Part shown: positions 15,310-17,842 of the stretch, piece after piece
Position numbering within the stretch: the first letter of the stretch is position 1
Layout of the letters: each line of letters begins with the position of its first letter
Source: Gemmatimonadota bacterium
GTDB lineage: Bacteria > Gemmatimonadota > Gemmatimonadetes > Longimicrobiales > Gaopeijiaceae
DNA: 64,000 bases
NCBI GenBank assembly: GCA_007126575.1
Contig: SLBA01000042.1
Span: 1 to 64,000 of the forward strand
Reading direction: 5' to 3'
Translations under genes and position numbers: made by a program
Notes under the pieces: generated by a model
Told to the model about the DNA's origin: nothing
The model's database searches: none
What the model saw: the letters and a program-made list of their open reading frames with translations, nothing else

Positions 15310-15696
15310 ATGAGCGATGTGAGTTTTTCCGAGCGTGAGCTCGACATCATGAGCATTCTCTGGCGCGAGGGCTCGGGTACGGTCAGTGAGGTCCGCGAGG
15401 CGCTCGAGGATTCGCTCGGCTACACCTCGGTGCTGAAGATCCTGCAGATCCTGGAAGAGAAGGGTCACATCCGGCACGAGAAGGAGGGGCGTGCCTATCG
15501 CTACATCCCCCTGGTCCAGGCCGAAGAGGCCGGACAGACCGCACTGGGGCGCGTCGTCGACAAGATCTTTCACGGCTCGGCGGAGCTGACGCTGGCCCGC
15601 CTCGTCTCGCAGCGCTCGATCTCGGCCGAGGAACTGGACCGGATGCGCCGGCTCCTCGACGAGCTCGACGCCGACGAAACGGGGAGCGAACGATGA
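15310..15696 (+). CDS. BlaI/MecI/CopY-family transcriptional repressor
   Basis: A 128-residue winged-helix repressor that begins SDVSFSERELDIMSILW and carries the recognition-helix region GYTSVLKILQILEEKGHI, followed by YRYIPLV. This is the BlaI pattern from end to end, with a helical dimerisation C-terminus. Proteins of this family dimerise on a dyad and are inactivated by cleavage or derepression through a partner M56 membrane peptidase. Such a partner starts 10 bp downstream, so the pair forms an operon and very likely a signalling module. No beta-lactamase or other obvious target lies nearby. Alternative readings such as CopY-type copper sensing cannot be excluded; no cysteine motif is present. 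Confidence 0.92.
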   Translation: MSDVSFSERELDIMSILWREGSGTVSEVREALEDSLGYTSVLKILQILEEKGHIRHEKEGRAYRYIPLVQAEEAGQTALGRVVDKIFHGSAELTLARLVSQRSISAEELDRMRRLLDELDADETGSER

Positions 15697-15706
15697 GGCA
15701 CGAACG

Positions 15707-17440
15707 ATGAGCTGGGTCCTCTACGTCCTGGCGCTCACCGGACTGCTCACCGCGGCGGCCTGGGGGGCCGAGCGGCTCTGCGCCGCGCTCCGGCTGCCCA
15801 CTCGCTGGCCCTGGCTTCTGGCCATGGGTGCGAGCTGCCTGCTCGTCCCACTGGCGTGGTCCGGCGTCCTGACTGCTCCCGACGAGCCTGCGGTGCCGGT
15901 CACCACGACGATGCCGGCGGCCACCCCCTCGGTCGCCTCTGACCCGGGGCCCGAGCGGGGTCTGCTCGCGGGGGTCCTGGGCGCCCTGAACCCGGCCGGC
16001 ACCCCGGCAGTGTTTGTGAACCGCGCGCTCCGGAGTACCGAGGAGGCCCTTGCCGGGGCCGCGTCCCGCATGGGCATGGACCGATCCGGCGCCGGGTCGA
16101 TGGTCGCCTCCCTCTCGATCTTGCTCTGGGGGGCCGCCTCGCTGGCGCTCCTCCTGACCTTGGCGACGACCTGGCAGCGCCTGGCCCACTCCCGCCGGCG
16201 GTGGCCCCGGGCGCGCCTGCTGGGTCACGAGGTCCGGATGTCGACCGAGCTGGGTCCGGCGGTGGTGGGGATCCGACGTCCCGAGATCGTGATGCCCACC
16301 CGGAGCCTGAGCCTCGAGGCACCGCAGCTCGGCCTGGTGCTGCTACATGAGCGCGAGCACCTGACCTCCGGAGACACCCGGGTACTCGCCGCGGGATTGC
16401 TCCCGCTGCTGCTCTTTCCCTGGAATCCCTTTCTCTGGATCCAGAACGCGCGTCTCCGGGAGGCGATCGAAGTCGATTGCGATGCCCGGGTCCTGCGCTC
16501 CGGCATTCCCGCCCGGCAGTACGCCGGCACCCTGCTCGACGTGGGAGGGGACCGCTTTCCCGGTCTCTCGCCCTCTCCGGCCCTCGGAGGGCCGACCCGA
16601 CTTCTCGAACGGAGGATCCGATCCATGAAGCCCCGCACCCGTACGCAACGCCTTCCCGCCGGACTCGCCGGTGCCGCCCTCGCGGTCATCTTCCTCGTCC
16701 TTGCCTGCGAGGTGGACACCCCGACCGTCGACGGCCACGATCCGGTCGAAGCCCAGGCTCTCCAGACGGCCGAAGAAGCCTCGCCGGACGAGGACGGCAC
16801 GATCACGGTTCGTGGCCGCCAGTCGATCTCGACGCACCCCTCGCCCCTGATCGTCATTGACGGCGTGATCCAGAGCTCCGGGCAGATCGGTGTGGCACCC
16901 GAGAACATCGTCTCGATCGAGGTCGTTAAGGGCTCCGACGCACGCGAGCAGTACGGCGAGCGCGCCAATGAGGGCGCGATTCTGGTCACGACCGTCGATG
17001 CCCCCGACGGGCCTCCCTCCCCCCCGACCCCGACGGAGCCCGGATCGAGCGACGATGCCGAGTCCGACGCGTCGATCGAGGCCATCGAACTCCCGCCCGA
17101 GGTCGATTCGCCGCCGCCCCCGGCCGATATCGAGGACCGGCGGGAGGTCCTTGAGGGGATGGTGTCCGGAGCCAGGGTGATGAGCCGCTCCGCTGACGAC
17201 CGGACGACCGTTCGACTGCGTGGCCGCACCAGCGGTACCTCCGGGGCGGCGCCCCTGATCGTGGTAGACGGGATCATCCAGGCGTCCGGAAGTGCCGACC
17301 ACCTGGACCCCGACGAGATCCTCGACATCGAGATCGTGAAGGGCTCGGCCGCCTCGGAGCGGTACGGATCGCGCGCCGCCGAGGGCGTGATCCTGATCAC
17401 CACCCGGGGGGCCGGCGACCCGCCGTCCTCCACACCCTGA
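15707..17440 (+). CDS. M56 (BlaR1-like) peptidase fused to two TonB-plug-like domains
   Basis: A 577-residue membrane protein. Residues 1-310 are the BlaR1/MecR1-type M56 region: hydrophobic segments near 1-60 and 130-150, then the cytoplasmic zinc site HEREH (214-218) with the following EAIEVDCDARVLR helix, and a last membrane segment near 315-335 that ends in LVLAC. Instead of a penicillin-binding sensor, the exported part carries two similar blocks. Block 1 (about 366-428) reads PLIVIDGVIQ...IEVVKGSDAREQYG...GAILVTT; block 2 (about 490-567) reads PLIVVDGIIQ...IEIVKGSAASERYG...GVILITT. This is the plug-domain signature of SusC/RagA-type TonB-dependent receptors. M56 proteins with one plug domain occur in Bacteroidota and relatives; tandem blocks suggest an internal duplication. 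Its presumed target is the BlaI-like repressor upstream. Confidence 0.85.
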   Translation: MSWVLYVLALTGLLTAAAWGAERLCAALRLPTRWPWLLAMGASCLLVPLAWSGVLTAPDEPAVPVTTTMPAATPSVASDPGPERGLLAGVLGALNPAGTPAVFVNRALRSTEEALAGAASRMGMDRSGAGSMVASLSILLWGAASLALLLTLATTWQRLAHSRRRWPRARLLGHEVRMSTELGPAVVGIRRPEIVMPTRSLSLEAPQLGLVLLHEREHLTSGDTRVLAAGLLPLLLFPWNPFLWIQNARLREAIEVDCDARVLRSGIPARQYAGTLLDVGGDRFPGLSPSPALGGPTRLLERRIRSMKPRTRTQRLPAGLAGAALAVIFLVLACEVDTPTVDGHDPVEAQALQTAEEASPDEDGTITVRGRQSISTHPSPLIVIDGVIQSSGQIGVAPENIVSIEVVKGSDAREQYGERANEGAILVTTVDAPDGPPSPPTPTEPGSSDDAESDASIEAIELPPEVDSPPPPADIEDRREVLEGMVSGARVMSRSADDRTTVRLRGRTSGTSGAAPLIVVDGIIQASGSADHLDPDEILDIEIVKGSAASERYGSRAAEGVILITTRGAGDPPSSTP

Positions 17441-17516: not shown

Positions 17517-17545
17517 TTGTGCATCGCCGGGGGCCCTCTTTAGCT
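17517..17545 (+). promoter_or_regulatory. Putative promoter of the structured small transcript
   Basis: TTGTGC (17517-17522), a 17-bp spacer and TTAGCT (17540-17545). The -10 is weak. The predicted start site near 17552 coincides with the first base of a perfect GTCCCC/GGGGAC hairpin, which supports the assignment. Confidence 0.4.
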
Positions 17546-17672
17546 TGCGGTGTCCCCAGATAGGGGACTGGGCCGGGGAGGGTTTCCCCAGAGGGAGATC
17601 TTCCGACCGGACCCCGGGTGTGATCCCGGCGGTGTGGTGCCCGATGTCGACTCAAACGAAGGAGGTGATCCC

Positions 17673-17735
17673 TTGTTAAGCCCCAGTAGACGTTCCAGCC
17701 TGGCATGGGCAAGCGATTGCCGACTCGGCCTCTGA
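17673..17735 (+). CDS. Short ORF (20 aa) with extended Shine-Dalgarno
   Basis: TTG at 17673 lies at ideal distance (7 nt) from GGAGG in the long Shine-Dalgarno and opens 20 codons. The peptide begins MLSPSRRSSL, ends CRLGL, and terminates with TGA at 17735. The last 14 codons overlap the closing stem and first two arms of the RNA fold, so translating ribosomes would disrupt that structure. This is the geometry of an attenuation or leader peptide, but no regulated gene follows because a terminator ends the transcript. A GTG at 17550 is in the same frame and would give 61 residues, but it has no ribosome-binding site and would lie at or before the predicted transcript start. Confidence 0.4.
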   Translation: MLSPSRRSSLAWASDCRLGL

Positions 17736-17807
17736 TAGCAAAAGCCTAGTCGCTCGCTGTTCGAGCCGCGCGAGGTAATCGCGCCAGGCTGGACGGCGTA
17801 ACGAAGA

Positions 17808-17842
17808 ACCCCCGTCGGATGCGAATCCGGCGGGGGTTTTTT
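17808..17842 (+). terminator. Intrinsic terminator of the structured small transcript
   Basis: ACCCCCGTCGGAT pairs with ATCCGGCGGGGGT around a GCGA tetraloop (13 bp, one G-T wobble), followed by six T residues. Confidence 0.92.

Follow-up and report, generated by a model that had tools for sequence, protein, structure and literature searches.

We find that the 64,000-nucleotide stretch of Gemmatimonadota DNA analyzed here (the window) encodes a small RNA that is best read, on comparative grounds, as a class-wide Gemmatimonadota variant of the rre/CC2171 kind and as very probably translated. In our judgment, it is probably a monocistronic structured small mRNA of the rre type that carries an extended Shine−Dalgarno sequence (SD) and is regulated by ribosomes. 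By sequence, the unit is free-standing, spans positions 17517−17842, and would give an RNA of ∼290 nt; it comprises a promoter, the SD, a TTG start codon, a short open reading frame (ORF), a folded 3′ half, and a terminator (Table 1).

Table 1. Features of the small-RNA unit, in order along the window
Feature	Position	Strand	Basis or observation
Sigma-70-like promoter, TTGTGC - 18 nt - TAGCTT	17517-17546	+	sequence; predicted transcription start ~17552
5′ hairpins	17552-17636 (first, 17552-17568)	+	predicted fold and homologue comparison
PK1, possible pseudoknot, GCCC : GGGC	17639-17642 : 17707-17710	+	GCCC conserved; 97.7% of cells paired
Extended SD, AAGGAGGTGATCC, 13 nt	17659-17671	+	complementary to 16S tail GGATCACCTCCTT
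20-codon ORF (MLSPSRRSSLAWASDCRLGL), TTG start 17673, TGA stop 17733-17735	17673-17735	+	sequence and homologues
P1 closing stem	17696-17704 (inside ORF) : 17783-17791 (3′ UTR)	+	both bases changed at 9 of 9 pairs
P1b	17713-17717 (inside ORF) : 17778-17782	+	both bases changed at 4 of 5 pairs
Internal anti-SD strand, GATTGCC (GATCGCC in most homologues)	17715-17721	+	can pair with SD 17664-17670
P2 region hairpin	17724-17745	+	in homologues, both bases changed at 4 of 6 pairs
Intrinsic terminator, strong, GCGA loop and U tail	17803-17842	+	sequence and predicted fold

The extended SD, the 20-codon ORF, the closing stem, and the strong terminator, all of which had been proposed in an earlier note on this DNA, are present, and the predicted fold of the RNA (−157.9 kcal/mol, z = −7.2) was equaled by none of 200 shuffled sequences. 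A strict promoter scan did not pick up the promoter-like site at 17517−17546 to which the note had also pointed, yet the motif TTGnnn-17/18-TAnnnT is strongly enriched upstream of the homologues, at matching and clade-specific positions. Relative to the start codon, these positions are about −126 to −130 in the window's clade, −108 to −110, or ∼−45, the last belonging to other families in which the motif lies much nearer the SD than in the window's clade. The 5′ hairpins exist in the window's copy and are confined to part of its family. In the predicted fold, the GCGA tetraloop, which had been assigned to an inner hairpin, is instead part of the terminator.

The RNA was found by blastn with 351 bases in 40 of 59 relatives, and a covariance model built from 29 homologues matches 159 of the 298 Gemmatimonadota genomes searched, with hits in seven families of the class; because the filters were strict, these genome counts are lower bounds. 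The covariance-model search places one copy in each genome, with one listed exception, and the titles of similar public records name Gemmatimonadetes. What had been described as an independent structured RNA with an ORF running through its fold is conserved far beyond close relatives.

Complementarity of the SD to the 16S 3′ tail covers 13 nt in the window's copy and up to 16 nt in other families. The complementary tails (GGATCACCTCCTTT) were read in three genomes from two other families of the class; a 16S gene was not found in the window's own assembly. Within this 3.68 Mb assembly, the 12-mer AAGGAGGTGATC occurs only twice. Two genomes of family f9 (L098, L099) have an altered SD, GGAGGTGGTCC (also given as GGAGGTGGTC), together with the internal strand GACTGCC, a double change that keeps the pairing; a search for their 16S genes likewise found none.

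Directly behind the SD, the start codon is TTG in 77 of 88 distinct homologues, GTG in 10, and ATG in one. The ORF that follows has 20 codons in 56 of them, 21 in 21, and 19−22 in 84, and it closes at the same place with TAA (35), TGA (31), or TAG (22), while the other two frames are scattered and show no such regularity. The start codon is separated from the internal GAUYGCC strand by 42 nt in 73 of the 88 and by 39, 42, or 45 nt in 85; these shifts come in threes, and insertions therefore preserve the frame. Because the length, the NTG start, and the use of all three stops are conserved, we infer that the ORF is almost certainly translated.

Covariation was assessed in the 88 homologues with an alignment fitted to the structure. 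Pairing in P1, P1b, and P2 is kept in 93.4% of cells, as compared with 27−39% when the partners are slid, and the observed level of covariation was reached by none of 500 shuffles. A plain MAFFT alignment of 29 sequences, not fitted to structure, gives the same picture, with five of the nine P1 pairs changed on both sides. The closing stem is 9−11 bp long and is continued by the conserved helix P1b, for which the compensatory variants GCGAU:AUCGC, ACGGU:ACCGU, and GUGGU:ACCAC are seen; in most homologues, the stop codon falls in the loop of P2, which is weak in the window's own copy. Of the 9-bp closed fold with four inner hairpins that the earlier note had described, the closing stem stands, whereas the interior consists of P1b, P2, and variable hairpins. 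Conservation and covariation, which the note had named beforehand as what its reading depended on, were both found, in the 159 genomes and at every pair of P1, and the comparison of homologues indicates that the RNA has a conserved structured fold. As the 5′ strands of P1, P1b, and P2 all lie inside the ORF, a translating ribosome must open the whole domain.

A near-invariant strand within the ORF, GGGCAnnCGAUYGCC, matches the upstream GCCC and the GGUGAUC of the SD, pairings that would form an SD-masking pseudoknot. It is plausible from this model that the internal GAUYGCC strand, at +42, could mask the SD. The SD:anti-SD helix is compatible with 97.7% of cells and nearly invariant, with one covarying pair, in the two f9 genomes, and SD masking is unproven for this reason; the PK1 strands are near-invariant as well, with no pair changed on both sides. 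Measured against shuffles, the energy of the SD:anti-SD duplex in Gemmatimonadota is not exceptional (mean z = −0.7). The masked and open folds have near-equal energies, with a median difference of −3.3 kcal/mol in favor of the masked fold; for the window's own copy, the open fold is the better of the two, by 1.8 kcal/mol. The anti-SD strand shares part of its length with the 5′ strand of P1b.

In the mechanism that we propose, the 13-nt SD would bind 30S subunits very tightly, and the weak TTG or GTG start would slow departure from the start site. Translation would then open P1, P1b, and P2 and end at the stop codon in P2, upon which refolding would reclose the RNA. Binding of 30S and folding of the RNA would be mutually exclusive, and the GAUYGCC strand would have two alternative partners, the SD and the 3′ strand of P1b, leaving the SD masked in the one case and free in the other. 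Occupancy and decay of the RNA would track the availability of free 30S subunits, as in a ribosome-responsive element, and the peptide is probably secondary to this function. The RNA might instead capture 30S subunits, sequestering them or the 16S tail without itself being regulated, with an ORF that only positions or releases the ribosome. An SD complementary to the single-stranded 16S tail, a weak start codon in nearly all members, and a poorly constrained peptide sequence are consistent with capture, but we consider it unlikely: the product of a one-copy gene would have to be very abundant before it could affect thousands of ribosomes, and simple capture would require neither the conserved stop codon nor the folding of the 3′ half.

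A search of the window against Rfam at the gathering threshold returned no family at the RNA locus, 6S RNA, SRP RNA, and RNase P RNA included, and only a tRNA elsewhere in the window, in agreement with the earlier note, which had seen neither these RNAs nor tmRNA here. tmRNA was rejected as an identity for the RNA; the locus has no ARAGORN or Rfam match and no tRNA-like domain, and a normal tmRNA gene is present elsewhere in the same genome (G000:C110). The resemblance to tmRNA (RF00023) is that of a stable, structured RNA with a short ORF within it, but the ORF here has its own SD and start codon. A permissive Rfam search gave weak matches only; CC2171 (RF01867), which shares the SD and start, reached 22.5 bits, below its gathering score of 75, so that membership by model score was rejected. 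When the CC2171 model was applied to 10 relatives, none exceeded the cut-off.

Among the matches listed in a scan for AAGGAGGTGATCCNNTGTCT in one genome per GTDB species, nearly all come from Alphaproteobacteria and Gemmatimonadota. The alphaproteobacterial loci are mostly free-standing genes. Their short ORFs range from 14 to 26 codons (18 in Sphingomonadales and Rhodobacterales, 20−26 in Rhizobiales and others, 14 in Bradyrhizobium), and eight of the 18 loci tested against CC2171 are above the Rfam threshold. Codons 3−4 are exactly complemented downstream, typically just before the terminator, in 40 of 72 alphaproteobacterial loci versus 3.4% in cross controls, and this pairing has the compensatory variants CATGGT, CATTGT, CATTGC, and CATCGT. 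In the consensus fold of Rhodobacterales and Bradyrhizobium, the SD itself is paired with an internal CACCUCC-like strand; we take these genes to be rreB/rreR. Internal copies of the 16S tail occur in L156, L157, L173, L176, and other alphaproteobacterial small mRNAs; the copy in L176, from a Rhodospirillaceae MAG, is exact (GGATCACCTCC).

The rreB/rreR genes of Bradyrhizobiaceae and the Rhodobacter/Roseobacter lineage (Hahn et al. 2017, RNA Biol 14:1353, PMC5711450) share with the RNA here an extended SD complementary to the 16S tail, a non-ATG start, a very short ORF, a transcription unit and terminator of their own, and, opposite the SD, an internal CACCUCC-like strand. Their ORFs have 14 codons (L156, L164, L168, L172, L189) or 18 (L157, L173, and others), as opposed to 20 in the Gemmatimonadota RNA. 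The rreB SD is reportedly 17 nt long, in contrast to 13 nt here, and the two RNAs also differ in P1 placement and in phylum. Strong binding of 30S and weak translation have reportedly been seen for rreB.

CC2171 members from Caulobacterales, Rhizobiales, and Acetobacterales likewise show the GAAAGGAGGUGAUCC-N-NUG-UCU start, a closing stem between the ORF and the 3′ end, and a terminator, but their ORFs have 21−25 codons, their closing stem starts at codon 3 rather than at about codon 8, and the inner helices differ. Such ORFs of 21−25 codons stand behind an extended SD in L181, L132, L169, L177, L128, L198, and L166; L162, for which no ORF length is listed, has the extended SD too. The Gemmatimonadota model gives the alphaproteobacterial loci ∼8−22 bits (maximum 22.3), mostly from the SD used to retrieve them, and because these loci were chosen by their SD, the likeness in SD is no evidence for common descent. 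The statement that the RNA works like rre/CC2171 is therefore, on present comparisons, better supported than the statement that it is a member. Judged from sequence, with translation inferred from conservation, it has three traits of the rre type, namely an SD of at least 13 nt, a very short ORF of clade-specific length, and a monocistronic unit with its own promoter and terminator. The "new small-RNA family" suggested in the earlier note is new as regards Gemmatimonadota, whereas Alphaproteobacteria have the same design in rreB/rreR and CC2171. As a tentative extension, about which we are more doubtful than confident, the two phyla may share a class of "self-competing" small mRNAs with an internal copy of the 16S anti-SD, in which a three-way exchange (SD:16S, SD:internal anti-SD, and internal anti-SD:3′ SD-like strand) would serve as a sensor of free 30S.

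Extended SDs also precede ordinary protein genes. The same SD-start-TCT string is carried by phage protein genes, which make up most of the matches in a viral collection together with a few bacterial-type copies. The phage loci L248−L289 have an extended SD as in the RNA here, but they encode ordinary longer proteins, mostly of 65−120 aa. On these viral contigs, the phage gene encoding a 65-aa protein (LSTTVFDVLN...) starts with TTG and has a GGGGCAAATGCCCC hairpin and the same 13-nt SD in front of it. Protein genes of S. aureus with an extended SD (PMC13009471) resemble the RNA in this element, and their products are again ordinary and longer.

Rfam catalogues CC2171, the alphaproteobacterial counterpart, as an sRNA, which would suit a trans-acting sRNA of the usual base-pairing type, its ORF being either incidental or, in a dual-function sRNA, a second function. 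The free-standing gene, its terminator, and a conserved segment between the start codon and P1 point the same way, but the frame and length of the ORF are kept class-wide, which is unexpected for an incidental ORF and makes a trans-acting sRNA improbable to us.

In codons 9−20, the third position varies no more than the first two, as expected for selection at the RNA level, and the peptide is only loosely conserved; selection appears, from these patterns, to act on the RNA fold and on translation over a fixed length and not on the peptide sequence. A functional micropeptide gene (M-S-S-P-S-...-[RW]ASDRR-x-G-x) whose mRNA is structured by chance would be in line with the common N-terminal MSSPS and RASDR and with third positions that are slightly more variable in codons 2−8. 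We hold little expectation of it, as the changes in codons 9−20 follow base pairing and not amino acids (L/P/S, R/W, and S/N/G swaps) and many families have quite different peptides.

Upstream of the RNA lies a BlaR1/M56-like gene with its stop at 17440, and downstream a redoxin-like gene on the minus strand (17913−18509), convergent to the RNA; both names come from reading the protein sequences. The redoxin-like gene is convergent to the RNA in 11 loci of the window's family, and over the class the flanking genes vary, with no conserved neighbor. At 15310−17440 (+), a BlaI-like regulator is followed by the M56/BlaR1-like peptidase, whose C-terminus contains two TonB-receptor-plug-like repeats (VIDGVIQxSG...I.SIEVVKGS.A.E.YG.RA.EG.IL.TT). 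Other families have, at seven loci, a gcvPA-like gene for glycine dehydrogenase upstream of the RNA and on the opposite strand, and this neighborhood is perhaps the ancestral one. The leader-peptide switch raised in the earlier note, or an attenuator for a downstream gene, would agree with a short ORF that runs into alternative stems and a terminator, but it is very improbable, since the downstream redoxin-like gene is convergent, no same-strand downstream gene is conserved, and neighbors that are not conserved over the class argue against any cis leader.

The RNA is single-copy and class-wide, matches the 16S tail almost completely, and keeps the length of its ORF while the sequence is free to vary; this combination points to a general function tied to the ribosome, and none is assigned in the literature that we found. 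These results extend the rre/CC2171 small mRNAs, which are poorly understood, beyond Alphaproteobacteria into Gemmatimonadota and give them an architecture in which covarying helices fold the ORF together with the 3′ UTR. They also suggest that CC2171, which is now catalogued as non-coding, is an mRNA.
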